Of a DNA stretch of 38,716 nt, positions 1,945 through 38,716 are shown one piece after another. The stretch is from a virus. The stretch is taken from positions 1 through 38,716 of IMG/VR virus record IMGVR_UViG_3300012037_000001, one strand, 5' to 3'. The notes beneath the pieces were generated by a model. That model was not told the DNA's origin. It saw only the letters and a list, made by a program, of their open reading frames with translations, and did no database searches. Position 1 is the stretch's first letter; every line of letters starts with the position of its first letter. A program made the position numbers and the translations under genes.

Positions 1945-2283
1945 ATGAAACCTGGATACCTAAATTATGGCGAACACCCTCGCGGCGATACCATAGACGC
2001 CAAGACATTCACGCTGACCAACACCAGCGCAGGCACAACTGCGCCTATTAACCTGACCGGCGCGGACGTAAGAATGACGTTCAGCCTTTCAGGTGTAAAA
2101 GTCGCTTTCGCCACAGGTGGCGGTATTACGCTGACCGATGCCGCAGCGGGCGTTTTCAGGAAAGATAAGTTCTCCTTGCCTCACGTTGGGGTGTGGACAT
2201 TCGACCTTCAGGTTATCATTGATGGAGATACGAAAACGTACATTATTGGACAGATTGAAATCATTAAAGATATAACAACATGA
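1945..2283 (+). CDS. Small baseplate/fibre-associated protein (BppU-N-like beta domain)
   Basis: 112 residues. It lies 12 bases after the fibre gene and its stop overlaps the next start (ATGA), so it is translationally coupled to the second fibre gene. The sequence alternates hydrophobic and polar residues with blocks such as TFTLTNTSAGTTAPINLTGADVR and GVWTFDLQVIIDGDTKTY, which resembles the N-terminal beta-sandwich of baseplate upper proteins (BppU-like, DUF2479 type). That resemblance is by pattern only. Likely role: connector between tail tip and fibre. No signal peptide or catalytic motif is visible. The start is preceded by an A/T-rich stretch (aaaattaaaataat), typical of Bacteroidota genes without a Shine-Dalgarno site. 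Confidence 0.6.
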   Translation: MKPGYLNYGEHPRGDTIDAKTFTLTNTSAGTTAPINLTGADVRMTFSLSGVKVAFATGGGITLTDAAAGVFRKDKFSLPHVGVWTFDLQVIIDGDTKTYIIGQIEIIKDITT

Positions 2284-4040
2284 GTGCTGTAAATATATTA
2301 GTAGAGGAAACAGTTGAAACTGTGACGATTTCGGTAACGAATGGCGCGGATGGCGAAGCTGGTGCTGCCGCAACCGTCGCGGTCGGGACGACAACGACAG
2401 GCGAAGCAGGGACTAATGCCAGCGTAACCGAAACAGGGACCGCACAAAATAAAACGTTTAATTTTGTTATTCCACGCGGCGAAGCTGGTGCTGCCGCAAC
2501 CGTGGCGGCCGGGACGACAACGACAGGCGACGCCGGAACGGATGCCAGCGTGACCGAAACCGGGGACGCACAAAACAAGACGTTTAATTTTGTTATTCCA
2601 CGCGGTGCAGCGGGTGCTGCTGGCTCGGCTACGGTATCAATAGGGACAACAACGACTGGAGCTGCTGGCTCTGCTGCTAGTGTTGCTAATTCAGGGACTG
2701 GGACGGAAGCGGTACTTGACTTTATTTTACCTGCTGGTGAAGAAGGAAGCGGGGGCACAGAATTGACAACTCCAGCAGTCCTGCTTAATGACATTCGTAG
2801 AGCCGATACAAATAATGCTAGCTATAACAACACAAATACCTTTGTTTGGATTCCAGCGACAAATAATACGGCCAACGGGTACATTACAAAAATATCAATT
2901 GAAGCAAATAACGCTTTAGCAGGAAGGAAGATGAATTTATTCCTTTTTACACGAGATGGCACAACCAATAACTTTATTACTCAATATATTGGAACTGACG
3001 ATTTTCCCGCTGAACTTGACGGGCTTAACGAAGCTACCTTACCCACTAGAATAGCAATTAAGGAAACACAAATGTTTGGCGTTTCGTTAAGCACAACTGT
3101 TGCGTCAAGCGCAGTACGTCTGTATTCTGGAGGCGGTAGTTCGTCAGACGAGGGAGGAACTGGGCACTTTCAGAATATAACAAGCCTAACCCTATTGGTG
3201 CCGACATCAATGTTGTTTATGTCGAACCGGGGATTATCCGCGAAGGCTTATGTTGAAGAAGCGGTAGCTTCTTCGCGCATAAACAATCCTTCGGGGCTAA
3301 GCGTGATTGCGGCAGTCGATAGCTTAGTTGGGAGCACAGTTTTTAATGAAAGAGATTGGTTTTTTGGCAAAAAAATACTTTATGTCGGCACGTCTATTCC
3401 AGCCGGGGGTACTACCCAGGAAGCTAGATACCCTGACATCATGGGGCGCATATTAGGGGCAGATGTGGAGAACGTAGCAATAGGAGGCTCAAGAGTGATA
3501 TTTACTAATTTAGCGAGCGACAATTTCAACGTAAATGCGTTGATGGGGACGATTGCGGAAAAAGAAGCTTTGTTTTCAGATAGCGCAACAGCGGTAGCTG
3601 CTTCGTATGAAACGCTAATAATTGGGAAGACGTATGATTACCTAGTTATCGACCATTACGTCAATGATCGCAGTCAAATACGATTTGGTTCCATCGGAAC
3701 AATATCAGACACCACAGCAGCAACTTTTCATGGAGCGTTCAACGTACTGCTAGCATCTGTATATGCCGACAAACCGGCCGCAAAAGTGTTGTTGGTTGCC
3801 TGCCCTAACATCTACACAACTGCAAATGCGCAAATAGATCAGGCAGGACAAGATGCAATTACAGCCCTCAAGGAAATCGCTTTAAAGTATCATTTGCCGT
3901 TTCTGAATCAGGCCGAGGAAGGGTATGTAAACACAAGCAATTTCACCGTTTATAATTCAGATGGCACGCACCCGACAGACGATGCGGAAAGGGCAAGGCG
4001 GGGCTACGCAGTTGCTCAATTTATTAAAAGACATCCTTAA
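2280..4040 (+). CDS. Tail fibre with C-terminal SGNH/GDSL hydrolase domain
   Basis: 586 residues. Residues 20-165 hold three copies of the fibre module (AATVAxGTTTTGxAG, ASVTETGxAQNKTFNF, VIPRGxAG), also present in the fibre gene that spans the window ends. Residues 165-330 look like a trimerising beta region. The C-terminus from about 360 carries SGNH-hydrolase blocks in the right order: GTSIPAGG (candidate nucleophile Ser372), AIGGSR (Gly403), HYVND (Asn462) and DGTHPTDDA (Asp561, His564). Such domains are esterases or deacetylases. On a tail fibre the likely job is removing acetyl or acyl groups from capsule, O-antigen or teichoic-like glycans during adsorption. Substrate is unknown. The block pattern is seen directly; the function is inferred from the family. 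Confidence 0.82.
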   Translation: MSAVNILVEETVETVTISVTNGADGEAGAAATVAVGTTTTGEAGTNASVTETGTAQNKTFNFVIPRGEAGAAATVAAGTTTTGDAGTDASVTETGDAQNKTFNFVIPRGAAGAAGSATVSIGTTTTGAAGSAASVANSGTGTEAVLDFILPAGEEGSGGTELTTPAVLLNDIRRADTNNASYNNTNTFVWIPATNNTANGYITKISIEANNALAGRKMNLFLFTRDGTTNNFITQYIGTDDFPAELDGLNEATLPTRIAIKETQMFGVSLSTTVASSAVRLYSGGGSSSDEGGTGHFQNITSLTLLVPTSMLFMSNRGLSAKAYVEEAVASSRINNPSGLSVIAAVDSLVGSTVFNERDWFFGKKILYVGTSIPAGGTTQEARYPDIMGRILGADVENVAIGGSRVIFTNLASDNFNVNALMGTIAEKEALFSDSATAVAASYETLIIGKTYDYLVIDHYVNDRSQIRFGSIGTISDTTAATFHGAFNVLLASVYADKPAAKVLLVACPNIYTTANAQIDQAGQDAITALKEIALKYHLPFLNQAEEGYVNTSNFTVYNSDGTHPTDDAERARRGYAVAQFIKRHP

Positions 4041-4041
4041 T

Positions 4042-4800
4042 ATGATTGATCTAATCCCCATGTACCAAACCAAAAACATATCCTCAAAGCTCCCCCGCCT
4101 CGTCACCATATTCCCACCCTACCTTTCTGAGAGAAAGGTGACAAAGGTCATGGTCCACCATTCAGGTGCGGAGAACGACATCTTTCAAGATGTCAGCTGG
4201 CAGGTAAAAGGGCGGGGCTGGTGGGGCTCGTCGTACTATATGTCAATCGACTATGATGGCACCCGATTCATTTGCCGCAAGCGGACAGAAAAGGGGTGGC
4301 ATTGCGGCGGTGGCGGAAGGAACCACGACACCCTGGCTATCTGCCTGCGCGGAAACATGGACAATCACCCGCCAACACCCGACCAGCTGGCCAGCCTCCA
4401 CGAGGCCCTGGTGGGGGAAGATGAGCATTTTGGGCGGCAGCTTGAGCTGGTGTGGCACGATATGTATGTGGCGACCAGCTGCCCGGGAAAGATGATGCCG
4501 CGCGAATTGATTTCTGGCCAGCTGCGCGATCATTACGCGCCTGTGGTGGTGGTGGTGCCAGCTGACGAACTACCCATCGCCGCCCCGCCAGCCCAGGTAA
4601 CAATTGACACACCCTCGCCGCCCGATCCGGTAGCCCCCATCAGAGAACCCAAAAACAACATACCAATGAACCCTACTGACGAGGACCGCCCTGGCTGTGC
4701 TTCCGCCATCTTTCTCCTGATTGCCCTGCCCTTCGTCACTGGTGCTGCCTTTTTCCTCCTCATGCTGGCCGCGCTGGTCGGCATACCAATCCCTTTCTAA
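4042..4800 (+). CDS. N-acetylmuramoyl-L-alanine amidase endolysin with C-terminal membrane segment
   Basis: 252 residues from ATG 4042, one base after the fibre stop; the frame is open further upstream, but earlier starts would overlap the hydrolase domain. Amidase_2/PGRP fold: zinc ligands are visible as His39 (MVHHSG), His139 and Cys147 (WHDMYVATSC), the same His-x7-Cys spacing as in T7 lysozyme. GWHCGGGGRNHDTLAICLRG is the typical core. It cleaves the amide bond between N-acetylmuramic acid and L-alanine in peptidoglycan. After a Pro-rich linker (residues 175-215) the C-terminus is a hydrophobic helix (about 222-250, FLLIALPFVTGAAFFLLML). That could make the enzyme membrane-tethered or allow holin-independent export. 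The holin gene lies far away at 26458. Confidence 0.88.
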   Translation: MIDLIPMYQTKNISSKLPRLVTIFPPYLSERKVTKVMVHHSGAENDIFQDVSWQVKGRGWWGSSYYMSIDYDGTRFICRKRTEKGWHCGGGGRNHDTLAICLRGNMDNHPPTPDQLASLHEALVGEDEHFGRQLELVWHDMYVATSCPGKMMPRELISGQLRDHYAPVVVVVPADELPIAAPPAQVTIDTPSPPDPVAPIREPKNNIPMNPTDEDRPGCASAIFLLIALPFVTGAAFFLLMLAALVGIPIPF

Positions 4801-5003
4801 TGCCTAATTTCAAGGACCCCATTACCCTCATCACCGCCGTCATGACCTGGGTGAACACCCTTTCCGACTGGCTGCCCACCCTCCACCAGAGAATGGCCAA
4901 TCGCGAACGTCGCAAACGCCTGCAACACGCCAAGGGGAAAATCAGTGATGCGGAGCTGGAGATTGAACTCGAAGCCATCCGCCAGAAACTGGCCGCTACC
5001 TAA
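4800..5003 (+). CDS. Small charged protein of unknown function between endolysin and protease
   Basis: 67 residues, with the start overlapping the endolysin stop (TAATG). The N-terminal third is amphipathic (ITLITAVMTWVNTLSDW). The rest is strongly charged and predicted helical/coiled-coil (RERRKRLQHAKGK, ELEIELEAIRQKL). The coupling to the amidase suggests a lysis accessory role, for example a spanin-like or regulatory peptide, but there is no clear signal peptide or lipobox, so I would not call it a spanin. The function is unknown. Confidence 0.6.
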   Translation: MPNFKDPITLITAVMTWVNTLSDWLPTLHQRMANRERRKRLQHAKGKISDAELEIELEAIRQKLAAT

Positions 5004-5889: not shown

Positions 5890-6341
5890 TCACCACCCTA
5901 TTGGCGAAGGCCCGCGCTCATTTCGGGCTCGCCCCCAACGCTTCTCTTTCTCAGCTCGACGCGGCGATTGACGCCGACACCCTCCCTGTAGTTCCCCCGA
6001 CTGATGCAGATCAGGGCGCGGACGCAGGTGCAAAGAAGGTGGACGTGCCAGCCGACGAAATCGCACCAGAAACCGCCCTTACCCGCGAAGTTGTCGCCAC
6101 CATGATTGCCACCGCCAGCGCAGAAATGTCGCAAGCCATTATCGATCTCAACGCCGCCAACGCCGAGCTGACGCAGGCCAATACAGCACTATCTGACCGA
6201 CTCAGCGCAGTCGAAGGCCAAGACGCTGCCAGCCACACGAGTGGGAAGACCGACGCCGTCGACCTCACCACGCCCTCACCAATTTACGCGCTGAACCCCG
6301 CAAACCTTCGCGCCGCTGCGCGCCTGAAAGGGCTCTCCTAA
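5886..6341 (+). CDS. Candidate scaffold protein
   Basis: 151 residues, overlapping the protease stop by 4 bases and 42 bases upstream of the major capsid gene. Composition is Ala/Asp/Glu/Thr-rich with a low-complexity linker (residues 35-65) and a predicted coiled coil at about 70-115 (TREVVATMIATASAEMSQAI, then NAANAELTQANTALSDRLSAVE). Position between an S49 protease and capsid, acidic composition and coiled coil fit an assembly scaffold removed by the protease. No sequence family is recognised. One copy of the dispersed GC-rich repeat lies in this gene on the minus strand at 6013-6032, coding here for QGADAGAK. Confidence 0.65.
   Translation: MITTLLAKARAHFGLAPNASLSQLDAAIDADTLPVVPPTDADQGADAGAKKVDVPADEIAPETALTREVVATMIATASAEMSQAIIDLNAANAELTQANTALSDRLSAVEGQDAASHTSGKTDAVDLTTPSPIYALNPANLRAAARLKGLS
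6013..6032 (-). repeat. Dispersed GC-rich 20-bp repeat, copy f (minus strand)
   Basis: Minus strand TGCACCTGCG followed by TCCGCGCCCT, inside the scaffold gene. Upstream on the minus strand CCTTCTT precedes it, as in copies e and g. Confidence 0.7.
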
Positions 6342-6383
6342 ACCAGGCCCCGAGCCAATTATTAAATCTAAACAAACCCTATT

Positions 6384-7346
6384 ATGGCATCTACCGATTA
6401 CTCCGCCGTTGCAGGCTACCGCAGCTACGTCGAGACAATCAGCGAAGACATCTTTCGCAAGCTCTTTTTCGAGTTCAATACCGCCAGGCTGGTGACCATT
6501 CACGAAGGCGTGAAAGGGAAAAAGGTATGGACTGAGATGAAGCTGCTGAACCTGGCGAAAGCCTATTTCCCTGCTTTCTCGGCAGGCGATACCAACCAGT
6601 TGGTACCCATCGAAATGGATGTTTCCCCCTTCAAGGTGGAGCACAAGGAAATCCCCCAAGAGATTGAGGATACCCACCTGGGCTTCCTGCGCCGCAACAG
6701 TTTCAATCACCAGGAGTGGCCCCTTGAACGCTACTCTGTCGAACAGCTTCTCGCGAAGCTACAGCAAGAGCTGGAAGTGGCCGTGTGGCAAGGAGTGAAG
6801 AAATCGACTGCGCTTGCCGCTGGCGATTCCATCAATATCGTGTTCAATGGCTACCTCAAGATTATCGCCGACGCGATTACCGCGACCACCGTTACTGCCG
6901 TCGTCACCGGAGCGATTACCGAAGTCAACATCCTCGAAAAGCTGAAGCTGATGTACGCCGAGCTCGCGCCCGAGCTCAAGACGAATGGCACGGACATCTT
7001 CGTGAGCTACGCGCTTTTCGATCACTACGTCGCTGCGATGGACACCAAGTTCGCTGGCAACTCTGCCCCCTACGTGGAGCTGGGCTCTGCGACATACCAG
7101 GGGATGCGCTACCGCCAGGGCGGCGGCAACACAACCCTGATTCCTGTCGCTGGAATGGGCGACAGCGGTCGCGTCATCATGCTCCCCCGCGCCAATTTCC
7201 ACATGGGCATTGACAGCCTGGCCGACTTCTCGAACTTCAATTTCGAGCAGCAGGTACGCGAGCTGCTCTACTGGCTGGATGCCAAGATTGGCGTTCAGAT
7301 CACGCTCCTGCGCGATGGCATTGCCGTCGTGAACGACCAAGCGTAA
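6384..7346 (+). CDS. HK97-fold major capsid protein
   Basis: 320 residues. The N-terminus is short, with no long delta domain, consistent with a separate scaffold. Recognisable capsid-type features are an N-terminal arm region (EDIFRKLFFEFNTARLVTIHEGVKGKKVW), a long spine-helix-like segment around residues 115-135 (VEQLLAKLQQELEVAVW), a central A-domain beta region and the C-terminal block HMGIDSLADFSNFNFEQQV with a final strand. It follows protease and scaffold and is followed by a strong terminator (7378-7407), giving it an expression unit typical for an abundant virion protein. It should form the icosahedral shell. Confidence 0.85.
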   Translation: MASTDYSAVAGYRSYVETISEDIFRKLFFEFNTARLVTIHEGVKGKKVWTEMKLLNLAKAYFPAFSAGDTNQLVPIEMDVSPFKVEHKEIPQEIEDTHLGFLRRNSFNHQEWPLERYSVEQLLAKLQQELEVAVWQGVKKSTALAAGDSINIVFNGYLKIIADAITATTVTAVVTGAITEVNILEKLKLMYAELAPELKTNGTDIFVSYALFDHYVAAMDTKFAGNSAPYVELGSATYQGMRYRQGGGNTTLIPVAGMGDSGRVIMLPRANFHMGIDSLADFSNFNFEQQVRELLYWLDAKIGVQITLLRDGIAVVNDQA

Positions 7347-14186: not shown

Positions 14187-14369
14187 CTCGCTGAGTGGAA
14201 TAGCCAGCGGCGGGAGCCGCTGGCATATAATACCGAATTTTGTGTTGCGTGGATCACGCAAACGCTAATCCGCGCCCTACGGGGGGGGAGAAGGTCAAGG
14301 CAAACAGAAGTTAATTTCGACCCCCAATTGGTTAAGAATCAGTACCTTTAAAAATCAAAGTAATACAAT
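14187..14369. other. Intergenic spacer with two inverted repeats
   Basis: It contains a perfect 9-bp hairpin GCCAGCGGC/GCCGCTGGC (14203-14224, GGGA loop) just after the terminase stop, and TTGCGTG/CACGCAA (14245-14261). A run of nine G lies near 14280. A weak TACCTTTA (-7-like) at about 14342 precedes the next gene but lacks a well-spaced TTG. No T-run follows the first hairpin, so it may be an RNA-processing or operator element rather than a terminator. Confidence 0.45.
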
Positions 14370-15825: not shown

Positions 15826-15883
15826 TTGACCCTAGTTGACCCTAATACGAGGCCATTTGACACAAGTTGACACAAGTTGACCC
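15826..15883 (+). repeat. Phased TTGAC(C/A)C repeats downstream of the integrase gene
   Basis: Five copies of TTGACCC or TTGACAC at 15826, 15836, 15857, 15867 and 15877, in two groups with exact 10-bp (one helical turn) periodicity; a reversed GTGTCAA lies at 15931. They mirror the GGGTCAA cluster at 17502-17572 on the other side of the integrase gene. Likely arm-type integrase sites or binding sites of another phage regulator. Confidence 0.6.
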
Positions 15884-17173: not shown

Positions 17174-17501
17174 TGGTGGAGAATATCGGAATCTACCCCA
17201 CCCCCCAAAACCTAAGCAAACACTATCACCCAACAAACCCAATTTGGCGATCGCCAAATAAATAAGGCGACGGCGCATAGGGCCAAAAGTTCTCGATACG
17301 GCCAGGTACATACTCATCAACAACTATTTGTAGTGAAATAGAAAAACAATAAACAAAGAACCAAACAACAATCAAATAACCTGATACTTTGACCCTAACA
17401 GATAGAATCACTTAAAGTATCAAAGTACCAGAGATAGATAAATAGCTGATTCTTACTTACTTACTTACTATATACTAAGGGGGGGGGTGGTCAATCCAAT
17501 T

Positions 17502-17572
17502 GGGTCAAATAGGGTCAAACACCCCCCCTACTTGGGTCAAACACCCCCCATATTAGGGTCAACTAGGGTCAA
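17502..17572 (+). repeat. Phased GGGTCAA repeats upstream of the integrase gene
   Basis: Five GGGTCAA copies at 17502, 17512, 17534, 17556 and 17566; two pairs are spaced exactly 10 bp. They are the reverse complement of the TTGACCC units at 15826-15883, so the two clusters flank int as inverted arrays. Poly-C stretches lie between the copies. Confidence 0.6.
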
Positions 17573-20014: not shown

Positions 20015-21514
20015 ATGTCACAAGACCCCTTTCTTCAGCTAGTTGAAGCAGAAATGGCGCAAGCTATGAGCCTCCTGAACGGAGGGGCTGCTATCCGTGA
20101 GCGCATCGCGAAGCTAGACCTGCGCAAGATCGCTTTCCCGCTTCATTGTCTTCCACTCGGCGTTGCCGAGTTTGTGCGGGCCTACATGGAAACCTTCAAT
20201 AGCCCAGCAGATCACTATGGCCTGGCAATAATGTGTGCTGCGGGAGCCGCCGTGGGCAACGCCGCCCGCATCAATGACCGGGGAACGATGCACCCGGCGG
20301 TGCTCAATGCTGTATTTGTCGACGTGCCCGGCAGCGGGAAAACGCCCACGATCGGAACGGTATTGAAGCCCTTCGTGAAAATCGAAGGGGAACACCAGCG
20401 CGACTACGACCGCGCAATCCACGAGTATAAGCAGGAGCAAAAGCAGAAGAAAAAAAACGATGACGAGGGTGACGACGAACCACCCTGCCCTGCTGAACTG
20501 CTGGTCGGCGATTTCACCCTTGAGTCGCTTATCGACGTGCTAGAGCACAATACCCGTGGGGTGCTGGCGTGGGCTGACGAGATAGAGGGATTTATTTCCG
20601 CGATGGACAAGTACCGCACGGGAAAAGGTGGCGACGATAAGTTTTGGCTCTCGGCCTACACCGGCGAGCCCTACAAAACAAACCGCCGAAACCGCAGCCG
20701 ACCGGTCTACATACCCCGGGTTTTCTGCCCTTTTATGGGCGGCATCCAGCCGGGCTTAATTACTGTCTTCTCTGACGATAAGCGAGATAGTAGCGGGTTC
20801 CTTTCCCGCCTGTTGTTCACGAAACCCGCCTTGGCTAAAAAGCAGCATTACCACAATCAGCGTCCGCACGACAAGCATGCAGCGCACTGGGAGTACTGCG
20901 TCCGCCGGCTTTTGGCCGTTCCCCCTCGCGAGACCATCAGCGACTTTTCAGGCAAGCAATTAGTGACGCCACACGAAATTGAGATGTCGGACGATGCAAG
21001 GCAGATTTACGCCGCCTTCGTCAATGGAATCGCCGACCGGATTAATGAGCTCGACGAGCTGGACATCACGACCAGATCTACCCTTGTGAAGTTCGAGACG
21101 CACCTGTTGCGCTTCGCCCTAATCCTTCACTACCTCGACTGGGCCAGCACTCCCCCACCCGCACCGATTGAATCGGACAATGAATTTGCCGATCTCCTGG
21201 CAGAAGGATACGTTCGCGAAAGCGACATCAGCAAACAAAAGATTACTGGCGATGCCATGAAGCGCGCCACCGAAATAGCTGAATACTTCATGGCTACTGG
21301 CCTGGAAGTAGTCGGCAAGCTGAAAGACTACGTGAATACACTCCCGCCGACGTACCAGGTGTGGTACGAAGAACTGCCCGAGGAGGGCATAACCACCAAG
21401 CTTGCGGTGACGCTCGGAGAAGAAGCGACCTTCAGCTCCAGCACCGTGAAGCGGATGCTGAAAGACCAAAAGCTTTTCAAGAAAGTAGGCCGTGGGGTCT
21501 ACGAGAAAATTTAA
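20015..21514 (+). CDS. DUF3987-type replication ATPase/helicase
   Basis: 499 residues from ATG 20015; the frame is open upstream, but that part overlaps the previous gene. It matches the DUF3987 family by layout: an N-terminal region ending in PLHCLPLGVAEFVRAY, then VDVPGSGKTPT (Walker A, Lys109), a Lys/Glu-rich insert (residues 130-155), GVLAWADEIEGFISAMDKY (Walker B-like, Asp188-Glu189), PRVFCPFMGGIQPGLI, SGFLSRLLF (Arg-finger-like) and a C-terminal winged-helix-like segment (ATFSSSTVKRMLKDQKLFKK). Such proteins act with primases as the phage replicative helicase or primase-helicase. No catalytic primase domain is visible here. Confidence 0.8.
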   Translation: MSQDPFLQLVEAEMAQAMSLLNGGAAIRERIAKLDLRKIAFPLHCLPLGVAEFVRAYMETFNSPADHYGLAIMCAAGAAVGNAARINDRGTMHPAVLNAVFVDVPGSGKTPTIGTVLKPFVKIEGEHQRDYDRAIHEYKQEQKQKKKNDDEGDDEPPCPAELLVGDFTLESLIDVLEHNTRGVLAWADEIEGFISAMDKYRTGKGGDDKFWLSAYTGEPYKTNRRNRSRPVYIPRVFCPFMGGIQPGLITVFSDDKRDSSGFLSRLLFTKPALAKKQHYHNQRPHDKHAAHWEYCVRRLLAVPPRETISDFSGKQLVTPHEIEMSDDARQIYAAFVNGIADRINELDELDITTRSTLVKFETHLLRFALILHYLDWASTPPPAPIESDNEFADLLAEGYVRESDISKQKITGDAMKRATEIAEYFMATGLEVVGKLKDYVNTLPPTYQVWYEELPEEGITTKLAVTLGEEATFSSSTVKRMLKDQKLFKKVGRGVYEKI

Positions 21515-21589: not shown

Positions 21590-22507
21590 ATGATTACAAG
21601 TACAAATATAGGTAGCAACGCCCGGATGATGGGCATCGTGTTCAACGCCTTCATCATTTTGTCCATCCTAGTCAACGCTGCGCTGACCGCGCAGTTTGGC
21701 TGGGAACACAGTGGCGGCGTATTCGGCGCGCTCATTATGCTCCTGTTTTTCGATGGCGCGGCCATCGCCTGGTACCTCGCTCGGAAAAAAGAAGGACTCA
21801 GCAGCATGCAGCGAGGAATCGCCAAGCTGCTTTCAATCGGCACCATCATTGCCAGTACGCTGGTGAGTGTCATCCAGGTACTGCTGAACACTACCCTGGT
21901 CGCGTTCAGCACGGACGCCCTGCAAACCATCGGGAAAGGTGGCCTGATTCTGGTCACCGTGGCGGCGGCTGCCAATTTCCTCGCCCTGTTTGCCTTCCAG
22001 TACTTCAGCATCGAAGAACAGAAAGCCGAGCAGCTCGAAGAACAGAAAGCCCGCGCCAACGACGAGCGGCAGGACATGATAAACGAGGCCCACACGAAGG
22101 CACACACCAAGGCCCGGGCCCGCCTAATGATGCAGACGGACGCAATCGCGGAGCGCATGGCCAACGATGCCGAACGCGAGTTCTACGCAGCAATGGACTG
22201 CCTGGACATGTACGAAGCACCAGCCGCGCGGCCTAATAAGGGCGCGGGCGCGGGTGCAAAGAAGAAGGGAAAGAAAGCAAAGAAGGCTACCCCTACCCCG
22301 CCCGTAAAAGCGGCAAACTCTGCCTGTGACTGTGGCATGCCGATAGGAACATCCGAAGGAGAGTGTGATTATGAACTCGGCGGTAACGGCTGCATGATCG
22401 ACCTCCGGGCCGAGCAAGAAAAAGCCGCCGCCCGCCCTATTGATTTCGAGAGTGTGCCGCTCGAACTCCCTGGCTTCGGTGCAGTAACCGACCCGCCGGG
22501 AAAGTAG
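21590..22507 (+). CDS. Four-helix inner-membrane protein with cytoplasmic coiled coil and Cys-rich tail
   Basis: 305 residues in the zero frame. Four hydrophobic segments at about 13-35, 43-65, 78-100 and 115-138, then a charged helical region (EEQKAEQLEEQKARANDERQ) to about 215, a Lys/Gly/Ala-rich linker (GAGAGAKKKGKKAKKA) and a Cys-rich end (CDCGMPIGTSEGECD). The stop TAG (22505) directly follows the heptamer GGGAAAG in the correct register for -1 slippage; the -1 frame encodes a zinc-ribbon-like extension. A membrane-linked replication, superinfection-exclusion or sensing role is possible; no family is recognised. The linker is encoded by a minus-strand copy of the dispersed repeat (22239-22258). 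Confidence 0.7.
   Translation: MITSTNIGSNARMMGIVFNAFIILSILVNAALTAQFGWEHSGGVFGALIMLLFFDGAAIAWYLARKKEGLSSMQRGIAKLLSIGTIIASTLVSVIQVLLNTTLVAFSTDALQTIGKGGLILVTVAAAANFLALFAFQYFSIEEQKAEQLEEQKARANDERQDMINEAHTKAHTKARARLMMQTDAIAERMANDAEREFYAAMDCLDMYEAPAARPNKGAGAGAKKKGKKAKKATPTPPVKAANSACDCGMPIGTSEGECDYELGGNGCMIDLRAEQEKAAARPIDFESVPLELPGFGAVTDPPGK
22239..22258 (-). repeat. Dispersed GC-rich 20-bp repeat, copy g (minus strand)
   Basis: Minus strand TGCACCCGCG followed by CCCGCGCCCT, inside the membrane-protein gene, preceded by CCTTCTTCTT on the minus strand. It codes for KGAGAGAK in the sense frame. Confidence 0.65.
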
Positions 22508-22632
22508 CCCAGCCTGGCGTGTGCGGGTATTGCGGCACTAACTTCCCCTACAGCAATGCCCGCCAACGCTACTGCCACGCCCACCGCCAAGCCAAGTACC
22601 GCGACCGCAAAAAGCTGGTAGTAAAAAGTTAA
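22498..22632 (+). CDS. Zinc-ribbon-like extension, candidate -1 frameshift product
   Basis: In the -1 frame from the heptamer GGGAAAG (22498-22504), read as G GGA AAG TAG in the zero frame, 42 codons follow to TAA (22630-22632). They encode VAQPGVCGYCGTNFPYSNAR and then QRYCHAHRQAKYRDRKKLVV, with C-x2-C, C-x-x-H and a basic tail as in small phage zinc-ribbons. There is no ATG; the only independent start would be GTG 22519 (38 aa). Frameshifted full product: 347 aa. A one-base sequencing or assembly error is the alternative explanation. Confidence 0.55.
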   Translation, partial: GKVAQPGVCGYCGTNFPYSNARQRYCHAHRQAKYRDRKKLVVKS

Positions 22633-22850
22633 GCTGTTACGCTCAATTAACTGATTGCGTGACATATACAGAAACTGACTGGTATCAGTACGGGCCGCGC
22701 CTTGCCCTGAACGCAGGGGAGGCGTGGCCCACTAATCACTAATTTTCCCATAATGTTTTTTCTGAGTATAGGGAAGTTCCTGTCAGCCTAAACGTAGGAT
22801 GGCAGGGGGAAGGGCTTCCCCGCTCGGACAAAAAACAACCAATATCAACC
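22633..22850 (+). other. Hairpin-rich leader region
   Basis: No ORF. Three hairpins in a row: ACTGA/TCAGT (22674-22689), GGGCCGCGCCT/AGGCGTGGCCC with inner CCCT/AGGG (22692-22730), and an outer GGGAAG/CTTCCC (22771-22820) enclosing CCTGTCAGCCT paired with AGGATGGCAGG (one mismatch, one wobble). The last ends 30 bases before the phosphatase start. It may be a structured 5' leader or small RNA; no T-run directly follows any of the stems. Confidence 0.45.
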
Positions 22851-23510
22851 ATGAAACTATATCCAAAAGAAAAACCATCCACCGAGTTCTTCTATGTGCT
22901 ATTCGTACTACTCGTGTGCGTCTACCTGTACCACGCAGGGCAATCGCATCTACGCAGCGAAGCCACTCAGGCCGCGATGACGCCAAGCCTCCAGCGCACC
23001 CAGCCCGCCCCCAAGCTACCAGATGGGGTGGGGCAGATGATTGGGAAGTACAGAATGGTCTTCGTCGGCGAACAGATCAACGCAGAGCAGCTGACTGAAT
23101 TTCTAGCCACCTACGACATCCGCCACGTCATCGACCTGGCCAACGAGGCCAAGGCCGAAAACATACTGCCCAACAGGGAGGAAAGATTTATCGTCGAAAA
23201 GACCGGCGCAAGCTACTGGCCCTTCAATATCGAGGGGGAAAATGACCGCCTGAACCAGGTGGTCCTGGCTACCATCGACAGTCTCGTGGACACAGGCCTG
23301 CCTGTTTTCGTCCATTGCAGCAATGGGATCCATAGGGTAGGGGTGGTCAAGGGCCGCGCGTATGCGCGGGATGGTCGACGCTGGAAGGAAGTTGTAGCCT
23401 TGCTGCGCTGGGAAAAGGTAGTCATTGATGCAAAGTACGATAGGTACACAAACGATGTCTGGGAGGCGGTGCAGGCATTGAATCAACCCCCAACCTTCTC
23501 TCAGCGATGA
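22851..23510 (+). CDS. Membrane-anchored PTP/DSP-like phosphatase
   Basis: 219 residues. One N-terminal hydrophobic helix (about 11-30, FFYVLFVLLVCVYLYHAG) followed by a Pro/Gln linker, then a phosphatase-like domain. Signature C-x5-R loop at residues 155-162, HCSNGIHR (Cys156 nucleophile, Arg162), preceded by LVDTGLPVFV and followed by VGVVKGRAYARDGRRWKEVV, as in dual-specificity phosphatases. LTEFLATYDIRHVIDLANEA is the usual earlier strand-helix. Expected reaction: hydrolysis of phosphotyrosine or another phosphoester. The anchor would place the catalytic domain outside the membrane if Nout-Cin does not hold; topology is uncertain. Phage role unknown. The stop overlaps the next start (ATGA). 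Confidence 0.72.
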   Translation: MKLYPKEKPSTEFFYVLFVLLVCVYLYHAGQSHLRSEATQAAMTPSLQRTQPAPKLPDGVGQMIGKYRMVFVGEQINAEQLTEFLATYDIRHVIDLANEAKAENILPNREERFIVEKTGASYWPFNIEGENDRLNQVVLATIDSLVDTGLPVFVHCSNGIHRVGVVKGRAYARDGRRWKEVVALLRWEKVVIDAKYDRYTNDVWEAVQALNQPPTFSQR

Positions 23511-27569: not shown

Positions 27570-30563
27570 ATGGCGCTAACTACCGACAAGTATCAGCTAG
27601 AAGTTTCCTTCATTACCGACCAGAGCCGCGCCCTGGCCAAAACCCTGATGGAGACGGAAAAGCTACCCAATGAGCTGAAAAAAGCACAGAAGGAAGGCAA
27701 GGGCGTCGCGGAGGTGATGGCCCGCATCGAGGCCGCAGGGAAGAAAGCGGAGGGGATTGACCTGACGAAGGTGTTGCCAGACCAACTTATCTCCAGGGCT
27801 CGGCAGCTGCGCCGCATCCTCGACCAACTACCAGCAAGCGCACCCCAAGTGGCTGCGCTGGAAAAAGAATATAAAGCGATAAACGACCAGCTGGCGACGA
27901 CGCGATCGCGCACGCGAGGGGTAGTGGCAGCAATGAACAAGGAAGATGGGGGCGGCTTGCTCGGCTTTTTCAAGCGTGGTCAGGTGGCAATCGTCGGCTT
28001 TGTCGCCGCCTTTAGCGGCGCGTTCGCGGTGCTCTCCCGGATTGCCACCACCTCCGCATTATTTCAGAAGTTCGAGGCGGTGCTGACCAACTCCCTGGGC
28101 AGCAAAAGCGCAGCCCAGTCTGCCCTCAACGACCTGCAGGATTTCGCAGCGAGGACACCTTTCCAGGTGGAGGAACTAATAGGAAGCTACGTTAAGCTGG
28201 TCAATCGTGGCCTGAAACCCACGCAGGTAGAACTTACGAAGCTGGGCGACATCGCAGCCAGCCAGGGCAAAGGGTTCGACCAGCTGACTGAGGCGGTGCT
28301 CGACGCGACGACGGGCGAGTTTGAGCGATTGAAAGAGTTCGGCATAAAAGGCAAGAAGGCGGGCGATGATATTGCCCTCTCCTTTAAGGGCCAGACGCTG
28401 GAAATCAAGAATACCCAGGAGGCTATCCTGGAAGCCATTGTTGGCTTTGGTGATTTGGAGGGCGTCCAGGGTAGCACCGCCGCCATCAGCGCGACCCTCG
28501 GCGGGAAGATTAGCAACCTGACCGACCAGTTTACGCGCCTGCTGAAGAACCTGGGCGAGGGTTTCCTTGGCAGGATCATCGCGGGGGCAGTCGATAAGGT
28601 CAGCAAGCTGGTCGGCATGTTCGTCAATCTGACGGACAATACGAAGACGCTAAGCCAGAGCACGGCGGTGCTGCAAGTAGCGTTCAATCAAGAAATAGCC
28701 ACCCTGGAGCGGGGCAACATCAGCACAGAGAACCGGGCCAGACTGATCGCGCGAATCAACGATCGATACGGCGACCTGCTGCCGAACATGCTGCAAGAAA
28801 CAACGAGCCTGGGAGAGATCAAACGAGCGCAGGAACTGGCCAATCGTGCTTTTGAACGCAAAATAATTCTCCTGGCGGCGGAGGAAGCGTTCGTAGATAC
28901 CAGGAAAAAACAGCTACTCGTAGTACGCGAAGAACTTCAGCTCGCTGACGAGCTGACGGCCGCGCAAGAAAAAGCCGCGCGAGCACAGAGACTAGCAGAA
29001 GCAAGCAGGGCCCGAGACCAGAAGTTTGCAGGCAACAACTCTGTAGAAGAAGCTGCTGCGCGCGAACTGAGCGGAGCAAGGGCGGCGGTGAAGGAAAACC
29101 AAAAGCTTCAAAAAGAACTGCAAAAAGAACTAGACGAGACCAGCAAAGCCGCCGAGAAACTCGGCCTTGACCTGTCACAGCTTGGCCAGCCAAGAGGCTC
29201 GGACCGAACAGTGACGGACGGACCAGTCGGGCCTGGCAGTGGCGACCCGCTCAAAGAAGCCCTCAAAAGACTCAAAGAAAACTTCGACATCCAAAGCCAG
29301 CTCGCGGAACAGCAACGCCTTCGTGAGGAGATCAGCGAAAGCGATTACCAGAAACGTGTACTGGAATTGCAAGCAGCTGAATACGTGCTGCAACTCCAGC
29401 TATTCAAGAAATTCAACGCCAACAAAACCCTGGCGGCAGAGGAAACGCGCACGGAATTGTTGCGCGTAGAGAAAGAGCTGAACCGCAGCGCGCCAGCGGC
29501 GGTACAGTCCATCGAAGGCGGTGAGCAAATTACCCGCGTTGATCGGCGCGGAATCAACGCGAGGCTGGACGCCCTGGCAAAGGTAGAAGAGGAGCAAGGG
29601 AAGATCACCCAGGACGCGCGCAACGCTGACCTCATCAATGAAGACCAGTTTGCCGTCGCCAAGCTGGCCCTCAAGCGATTGATTCTCAGTCAGGAAATTG
29701 AAATACTAGGGGAAGGGACCACCGCCGAGATTGCCCTGGCCAGGGAGAAAAAAGACGAGCTGGTGGCCATTGACCAGGAGCTTTTCGATAAGCGCAAAGA
29801 GCTATCCCTGCGCGAGCAGGAGCTACGCGCCGAGCTAGAGCAGCAGAAAACAGCGATTGCCACTGAGGGCCTGAGCACCCTGGAGGATCTGCTGGGTCGC
29901 GACGAAGCCGCGCGAAAGAAGAATGCGGCGGTCATCAAAGCTTTTCAGGCGGGGCAAGTCTTCGTTGCTGGCTTTGCCGAGCAGCAGCAGATAGCAGCAG
30001 CTACCGCCGCCCAAGTCGCTACCGCATCGCTGACCGTGGCCGGTCTGGCCCTGGTGCCAGGCATCATCGCGGCCGGAAAGATTCGCGCCATCTTCGCGGG
30101 CGTCCGCACCGCCGCCAACGTGGCGAAAATCGTATCGACGAAGTTCGAAAGGGGTGGAAAGGTGGGCACTTTTGGCGGCAAAAGCCATCGCGCTGGCGGC
30201 ACAAAGCTGTATGGCGACGACGGAACCCTCGTCGAAGTAGAGAAAGGGGAGGACTTTTTCGTGATCAACAAGCGCAGCAGCGACATGCGCCGCCGCCTCA
30301 GTAATATGAACGTGGCCGGGGGCGGCGTTCCTTTTTTCAATAGGGGAGGGGATGTATTCAATGCACCCAACACTACGCCATCGTTGCCGGCCAGCCTGCT
30401 GGGCGGCGGGCAGGCTGACAACGCTGCCCTGCTGGAACGCATCGACCTCCTGACCGCCGTCACCGCCAACATGCAGACAAGCCTGCGCGCCACGGTCTCC
30501 CTCACAGAAATCAACGATGGCAATGCAGACCTCGCTGAGCTGTTCAATATTTCGTCTGTTTAA
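27570..30563 (+). CDS. Tape measure protein
   Basis: 997 residues, the largest gene in the window. Order: N-terminal coiled coil (LPNELKKAQKEGKGVAEVMA), a hydrophobic segment at about 130-155 (GQVAIVGFVAAFSGAFAVLS), a TP901-type core (QSALNDLQDFAARTPFQVEE, KLGDIAASQGKGFDQLTEAV), long coiled coils (about 440-780), a second hydrophobic stretch near 830-860 (ASLTVAGLALVPGIIAAGKI) and a C-terminal Gly-rich end (FERGGKVGTFGGKSHRAGGT) typical of tape measure proteins. It sets tail length, and with no sheath gene nearby the virion is siphovirus-like. Confidence 0.9.
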   Translation: MALTTDKYQLEVSFITDQSRALAKTLMETEKLPNELKKAQKEGKGVAEVMARIEAAGKKAEGIDLTKVLPDQLISRARQLRRILDQLPASAPQVAALEKEYKAINDQLATTRSRTRGVVAAMNKEDGGGLLGFFKRGQVAIVGFVAAFSGAFAVLSRIATTSALFQKFEAVLTNSLGSKSAAQSALNDLQDFAARTPFQVEELIGSYVKLVNRGLKPTQVELTKLGDIAASQGKGFDQLTEAVLDATTGEFERLKEFGIKGKKAGDDIALSFKGQTLEIKNTQEAILEAIVGFGDLEGVQGSTAAISATLGGKISNLTDQFTRLLKNLGEGFLGRIIAGAVDKVSKLVGMFVNLTDNTKTLSQSTAVLQVAFNQEIATLERGNISTENRARLIARINDRYGDLLPNMLQETTSLGEIKRAQELANRAFERKIILLAAEEAFVDTRKKQLLVVREELQLADELTAAQEKAARAQRLAEASRARDQKFAGNNSVEEAAARELSGARAAVKENQKLQKELQKELDETSKAAEKLGLDLSQLGQPRGSDRTVTDGPVGPGSGDPLKEALKRLKENFDIQSQLAEQQRLREEISESDYQKRVLELQAAEYVLQLQLFKKFNANKTLAAEETRTELLRVEKELNRSAPAAVQSIEGGEQITRVDRRGINARLDALAKVEEEQGKITQDARNADLINEDQFAVAKLALKRLILSQEIEILGEGTTAEIALAREKKDELVAIDQELFDKRKELSLREQELRAELEQQKTAIATEGLSTLEDLLGRDEAARKKNAAVIKAFQAGQVFVAGFAEQQQIAAATAAQVATASLTVAGLALVPGIIAAGKIRAIFAGVRTAANVAKIVSTKFERGGKVGTFGGKSHRAGGTKLYGDDGTLVEVEKGEDFFVINKRSSDMRRRLSNMNVAGGGVPFFNRGGDVFNAPNTTPSLPASLLGGGQADNAALLERIDLLTAVTANMQTSLRATVSLTEINDGNADLAELFNISSV

Positions 30564-38001: not shown

Positions 38002-38716
38002 TGAAGCAATTACTTTCTCTGCTCTTCCTCTGCCTTCTTTGCACCGGCGTCCGCGCCCAAAACGCTGCCCCCCTGAAGGGTACGGGCGTACTGCACTATA
38101 AGGACATCCCGACCCACGTACCCGATACGCGATCCCCCCAGGTGGTCTTCGTCGTCGATTCGCTGAAGTGGTACGTGTACGACGCTGACGCTACCGCCTG
38201 GCTCCAGCTTTCTGGTGGCGGTGGGCAAGGGATTGACGGGAAAAGCCTGCTGAATGGGCAAGGCGCACCGGCCAACAGCCTCGGCAATAATGGAGACTTC
38301 TATATTGACACTGATGCCGACCGCATTTATGGCCCCAAGGGCGGCGGCGTCTGGGGAAACGGGACACTGATTACTGGCCCGGCCGGACCCACTGGGCCAG
38401 CGGGCGCGGGCGTCGTGATCGTAGGATCGGTGGCCAACGCGGCCGCCTTGCCAAGCCCCTACGACGGTAATGTCGGTGATATGTTCATTGCAGAAGATAA
38501 CGGTGGGGGCTATGTCTACAATGGTAGCACCTACACTTTTGTGGGCCAGATCCGAGGGCCCCAGGGCGCAACTGGAGAAACAGGATTGACGGGCGGGGTC
38601 GGCCAGACGGGAACGGCAGGAGCTGCTGCGACCGTGGCGGCAGGAACGACGACGACAGGGGCCGCTGGCACGAATGCCACCGTCTCCAACGCGGGGACGC
38701 CACAAAACCGAACGCT
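38001..38716 (+). CDS. Tail fibre protein, N-terminal part with signal peptide (continues at base 1)
   Basis: Open to the window end; codon 230 (AAC at 38688) is the same codon as base 1, so the gene continues as 1-1932 (total about 872 aa). The first 20 residues are a classic signal peptide, MKQLLSLLFLCLLCTGVRAQ, with an AxA-like VRA/Q cleavage site as in Bacteroidota exported proteins. It is followed by a beta domain (GTGVLHYKDIPTHVPDTRSP, VVFVVDSLKWYVYDADATAW) and Gly-rich repeats (GPAGPTGPAGAGVV, GPQGATGETGLTG). A signal peptide on a phage fibre is unusual. The C-x-x-V-R-A-Q codons contain a copy of the dispersed repeat (38040-38059). Confidence 0.8.
   Translation, partial: MKQLLSLLFLCLLCTGVRAQNAAPLKGTGVLHYKDIPTHVPDTRSPQVVFVVDSLKWYVYDADATAWLQLSGGGGQGIDGKSLLNGQGAPANSLGNNGDFYIDTDADRIYGPKGGGVWGNGTLITGPAGPTGPAGAGVVIVGSVANAAALPSPYDGNVGDMFIAEDNGGGYVYNGSTYTFVGQIRGPQGATGETGLTGGVGQTGTAGAAATVAAGTTTTGAAGTNATVSNAGTPQNRT
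38040..38059 (+). repeat. Dispersed GC-rich 20-bp repeat, copy e
   Basis: TGCACCGGCG followed by TCCGCGCCCA, in coding sequence for the signal-peptide end (CTGVRAQ). Confidence 0.75.

Follow-up and report, generated by a model that had tools for sequence, protein, structure and literature searches.

A real programmed −1 frameshift at a G_GGA_AAG heptamer very probably lets one gene in the 38,716-nucleotide viral sequence analysed here (hereafter the window) specify a phage membrane protein in two forms. Most ribosomes would stop at the TAG codon adjoining the heptamer and release a 305-aa form, and a minority, carrying the Gly and Lys tRNAs, would slip back one base and add 42 residues, resulting in a 347-aa form. 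The features concerned are the following, numbered from the first nucleotide of the window.

20015–21514, plus strand: gene for a DUF3987/phage helicase-like replication protein, upstream neighbour of 21590–22507 and syntenic in relatives L003 and L004
21590–22507, plus strand: zero-frame ORF of 305 aa, described from hydropathy, AF2 modelling and comparison with relatives
22498–22504, plus strand: slippery heptamer G_GGA_AAG in the X_XXY_YYZ register, identical in relatives L002, L003 and L004
22505–22507, plus strand: zero-frame TAG stop codon adjoining the heptamer, conserved
22504–22632, plus strand: −1-frame extension of 42 codons and TAA, with a CxxC-x13-YC-x2-H module and a basic C-terminal helix (translation, comparison, AF2)
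22512–22575, plus strand: possible stimulatory hairpin of 64 nt with an 11-bp stem and a 7-nt spacer between it and the heptamer (z −2.7 over 70 nt), present also in L003 and absent from L004
22519–22521, plus strand: −1-frame GTG immediately preceding the codon for the first Cys; no other codon here could serve bacteria as the start of a separate zinc peptide, and L004 has no equivalent

An earlier note, made by a model from the letters of the window, had placed GGGAAAG in the −1 register directly before a stop codon. Site and register can be read directly from the sequence and are as described: the zero frame runs CCG (22496), GGA (22499), AAG (22502) and TAG (22505), that is, G_GGA_AAG followed by TAG. 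The −1 frame continues with GTA GCC for a total of 42 codons (22504–22629) before TAA at 22630–22632, and its peptide, VAQPGVCGYCGTNFPYSNARQRYCHAHRQAKYRDRKKLVVKS, holds the CGYC...YCHAH stretch and the basic tail that had been pointed out in this frame; the predicted fusion of 347 aa likewise agrees with the sum of 305 and 42. GGGAAAG occurs in 9 copies on the plus strand of the window. Of the 171 ORFs called mechanically with a minimum length of 60 aa, only 21590–22507 and one spurious antisense ORF (73 aa) have an in-register terminal copy. Measurements in E. coli place G_GG.A_AA.G, in the presence of stimulators, among the top three heptamers for efficiency (PMC4066793), and it has been called highly shift-prone in that species (PMC5009743). 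Judged by these published values, which are for E. coli and from which Bacteroidota ribosomes may differ, the heptamer itself would slip, probably with a low efficiency of a few percent, and the adjoining stop codon may add a pause. Another slippery form, C_CCT_TTC_TAA, ends the amidase gene at 3961–4800 and is followed by an open −1 frame of 68 codons (4800–5003); this frame is that of the following ORF, which has an overlapping ATG of its own at 4800, and ordinary coupling appears more likely there.

Three other IMG/VR contigs from separate metagenome assemblies carry the gene. L002 is identical over the gene, and the proteins of L003 and L004 are 95% and 72% identical to that of the window, giving three distinct sequences, two of them close, so that L004, as the one divergent relative, bears most of the weight of the comparison. 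Alignment-based and subregion-based searches for further IMG/VR loci returned none beyond the same three contigs, to which an alignment of the helicase also led. GGGAAAG-TAG was found at the same place in all three, each time with a CxxC-x13-YC module in the −1 frame, and the extensions are 42 (window and L002), 43 (L003) and 39 (L004) codons long. Over the first 210 codons of L004, 96 of 210 third positions differ from the window (46%) versus 22 first and 18 second positions (about 10%), an excess indicating that the divergence is real and under selection. Heptamer, TAG and zinc-like module have thus all been kept in a genome with 46% of these third positions changed, which supports the programmed switch that had been suggested for this site.

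Beyond residue 210 the linker is poorly alignable between L004 and the window. Across linker and −1 ORF (about 450 nt, with proteins about 30% identical), the longest exact word common to the two is the 14-nt GCCGGGAAAGTAGC. The −1 peptides share 32% identity, with V-A..G-x-C-x2-C-x13-Y-C...H kept and V-A, G, CxxC, YC, H, A, R and L in common. When the L004 DNA was shuffled with dinucleotides preserved, CxxC..YC appeared in 0 of 20,000 shuffles and a protein score as high as that observed in 141 of 20,000. In each of the three genomes the −1 frame had the best codon-usage score, at +7.1 for the window, +7.2 for L003 and −0.3 for L004; against references of 1.4 (in-frame 5th percentile) and −5.5 (off-frame 95th percentile), the L004 value is intermediate between the in-frame and off-frame ranges. 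Between L003 and the window, a 3-nt insertion preserves the −1 frame and 2 of 4 substitutions are silent in it.

Two scans of 2.9 million viral contigs for GGGAAAG-stop with CxxC and YC after it gave 142 matches (34 + 108), and a zero-frame ORF longer than 115 codons accompanied the motif in the three relatives only, the longest other one having 113 codons. Two of the other matches, contigs L113 and L093, resemble common gene overlaps of the GTGA type. A 20-nt conserved intergenic word also matched other contigs, and those matches arise from ParB-like 'NRLALNAG' coding. In the fecal phage contigs L009 and L010, which carry a distant DUF3987 helicase, the next gene looks primase-like and no such membrane gene is present.

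We considered whether the zinc module could instead be translated as a separate 37-aa peptide, starting at GTG 22519 by termination-reinitiation just past TAG. This GTG lies 11 nt after the stop codon, adjoins the first Cys codon and is shared by L003, and short coupled ORFs are common in phages. By contrast, L004 has no ATG, GTG or TTG between the upstream −1-frame stop and the first Cys codon, its first available start being a TTG after that Cys, the use of which would remove it. The comparison therefore rules out a separately started zinc gene in L004, where the module needs a ribosome coming from the membrane gene. A separate start would also leave unexplained why the in-register heptamer is the longest shared word and why the −1 frame is open through it in all genomes. 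Taken together, these results make a separate start unlikely. The earlier statement that the zinc-ribbon lacks an ATG of its own holds for the window and has to be qualified by the GTG at 22519–22521, present in the window and L003 and not in L004; in none of the three related contigs does the module stand as a separate gene.

If the slippery site were coincidental, some shifting would occur, the tail would be incidental and the 305-aa form would be the only functional product. That no stimulator is common to all three sites and that the tail is variable (32% identity) would fit such a reading, for which incidental A_AAG frameshifting producing an extended cytidine deaminase in Bacillus offers a precedent (PMC5009743). 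However, the Cys/His pattern, the coding bias and the exact heptamer are all conserved, which makes coincidence quite improbable, even if three sequences are not overwhelming. A decayed or mis-assembled in-frame fusion, in which a biological or sequencing indel split one gene into two frames, has very little left in its favour: a fused gene with one base altered would have this arrangement, and the contigs are metagenomic, but L002, L003 and L004 from other assemblies have the same base order, with no base missing or extra at 22498–22504, and both the −1 coding signal and the motif survive large divergence, whereas a dead tail would not keep CxxC..YC. Readthrough of TAG was discarded, as it would add just 9 codons in L004.

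For the favoured reading of a programmed −1 frameshift, a stimulator is possible but not shared. The hairpin downstream of the heptamer has a predicted counterpart in L003 (z −3.1 in a 70-nt window), and L004 is without one, leaving no downstream structure common to all three sites; inspection by eye also revealed no SD-like element common to the three. For certain frameshifts of tailed phages, stimulators appear to be dispensable (PMC5009743). Farther downstream of the gene, two strong intergenic RNA hairpins were predicted at 22692–22730 and 22754–22836 (z −6.2 for the region), the second ending just before the next start codon. They are predicted in L004 as well (z −5.5), with the apical CC-AAACGU-GG kept and the stems changed, and the region had no Rfam match at E 1. 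These hairpins could act as a leader or in processing; for T7 gene 10, an effect on frameshifting from a distance has been reported.

The extension is best described as a putative C2CH-type zinc-finger-like module, for which zinc binding is suggested by the residue pattern and by a low-confidence model. AF2 folded the 42 residues into a short CxxC/YC-x2-H finger with a basic helix (pLDDT 71), for which Foldseek gave no significant match, the top hits being of zinc-finger type at E 2.5 or worse, among them the FCS finger of LMBL2 (E 3.4). The best PHROG match was PHROG 1271, an HNH endonuclease, at a non-significant E of 0.024, and a PDB sequence search returned a C2H2 finger at a sub-threshold E of 0.0076. 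The assignment is thus sub-threshold in every library searched (family, profile, PDB and fold). The module resembles HNH-preceding and FCS-type zinc fingers in its CxxC...(Y/F)C layout and in these weak matches, but differs from them in having no significant match and no nuclease domain after the module; we accordingly rejected an identity as an HNH-associated or FCS zinc finger. The module may bind nucleic acid, with no family or fold match reaching significance.

The description of the carrier as a membrane protein agrees with hydropathy, which predicts four transmembrane helices in the 305-aa protein at about 14–32, 42–60, 80–104 and 118–136. A long helix, predicted to be cytosolic, reaches residue 201 or so and is followed by a Lys/Ala-rich linker in which four zero-frame cysteines (C246, C248, C259 and C268) form a cluster and are all invariant in the relatives. 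AF2 placed helices at 5–36, 38–65, 72–105 and 108–201; at a mean pLDDT of only 50.7 the model was too poor for a fold search. The loop after the second transmembrane helix contains RKKEG and the region after the fourth is charged, and from this pattern the positive-inside rule would put both termini, and with them the tail, in the cytosol; this topology is deduced from anatomy only. Profile searches of tail families gave no match for the gene. Searching INPHARED phages by tblastn with the N-terminal 203 aa (E up to 10), and PLSDB and GTDB genomes with peptide patterns, revealed no relatives of the membrane protein.

The gene content of the window is that of a temperate tailed-phage genome. Integrase and repressor genes lie on the minus strand and are followed in gene order by SSB, small genes, the DUF3987 helicase-like gene, the four-helix membrane ORF and a phosphatase-like gene, with holin and tape measure genes farther on. 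The tape measure gene, at 27570–30563, is about 5 kb downstream of the membrane gene, with other genes between. The host group is probably Bacteroidota. Terminase matches were mostly to phages of this group, with two Microcystis phages and others also among them. SD-like cores were found at 2 of 36 gene starts in the window (background 14%), and A-rich leaders stand upstream of its genes; both are as expected for Bacteroidota, given that Bacteroidia ribosomes are reported not to recognise SDs (PMC9976891).

Among the programmed frameshifts of tailed phages that we found described, most involve tail assembly chaperones or virion proteins extended by surface domains (PMC5009743, PMC10885494). 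G_GGA_AAG has been recorded for the archaeal virus HCTV-5, and C-terminal parts added by frameshifting in phages include those of gpGT chaperones, the Ig-like domains of T3 and A2, T7 10A/10B and proteins of Listeria phages A118, A500 and PSA (PMC5009743). The present case is like T3, A2, T7 10A/10B and A118/A500/PSA in that a small domain is put on a fraction of copies by a frameshift near the stop codon, but those proteins are virion proteins receiving Ig-like or other surface domains, whereas here the carrier is an early-module membrane protein and the addition is zinc-finger-like. The lambda gpG/gpGT heptamer is, as we take from the earlier note, also GGGAAAG. With lambda gpG/gpGT the present site would share heptamer class, −1 direction, independence of an obligatory stimulator and a C-terminal extension on a minority of copies; it differs in being on a four-helix membrane protein of an early/replication module with a 42-aa zinc-finger-like addition, rather than on a tail chaperone. 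We also rejected an identity as a G/GT tail assembly chaperone on the grounds that the gene does not immediately precede the tape measure gene, lacks any match to tail families and follows the helicase-like gene. In the open-licence literature we found no phage frameshift described for a membrane protein and none that adds a zinc-like tail, which is not proof of absence but agrees with the earlier remark that the arrangement is known from no described phage system. Thus the mechanism is known, and we found the carrier gene and the added domain in no described phage. Addition of a zinc-finger-like tail to an early-module membrane protein by a conserved frameshift would widen the use that phages are seen to make of recoding. 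It would also represent a natural −1 site abutting a stop codon in a group whose ribosomes should not respond to stimulation of the SD type, and a gene likely to be cut short by automatic annotation.

As for function, our tentative guess is that the protein serves as an inner-membrane anchor for phage replication or nucleic acid and that frameshifting fixes the number of copies with a binding tail. The position in the early module and the basic tail are our reasons for preferring an anchor that would hold replication proteins or nucleic acid of the phage at the membrane. The working analogy is phi29 p16.7 (and also p1), p16.7 being an integral membrane protein which brings phage DNA together at the membrane (PMC4974454); the possible likeness would extend here to transmembrane helices and module position, whereas no sequence relation was seen and frameshifting is not described for p16.7 (PMC4974454). 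A fuller and somewhat more doubtful proposal is that, in a family of Bacteroidota phages, slippage would set the share of an early membrane protein carrying a nucleic-acid-binding zinc tail, and with it the number of docking points for DNA or RNA. If true, frameshifting would serve a non-structural, membrane-associated function in a tailed phage. The next gene (22851–23510) encodes an N-terminally membrane-anchored, tyrosine-phosphatase-like protein with an HCSNGIHRVG signature (DSPc E 6.6e-5, below the cut-off), and in L003 a DNA cytosine methyltransferase-like gene (6267–7106) is inserted between the downstream hairpins and the phosphatase-like gene.

Several further observations concern the window as a whole. 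A 29-nt direct repeat at its ends (1–29 and 38688–38716) is similar to repeats of a collagen-like gene at about 2280–4040, and by its sequence the record would be either circular or broken at a repeat of this type. Clusters of TTGACCC/GGGTCAA repeats, mostly in opposite orientation (9 of 12 copies in the window), flank the integrase gene at 15826–15883 and 17389–17572; they may be integrase arm sites or operators. Finally, contigs L050, L054 and L052 (74% identical) stop at an apparently homologous base corresponding to position 14270, shortly past the terminase gene, with the sequences ...ACGCTAATC and ...ACACTAATC at the shared contig end. Other contigs continue through the homologous position, and 14270 is a candidate end of packaged DNA.
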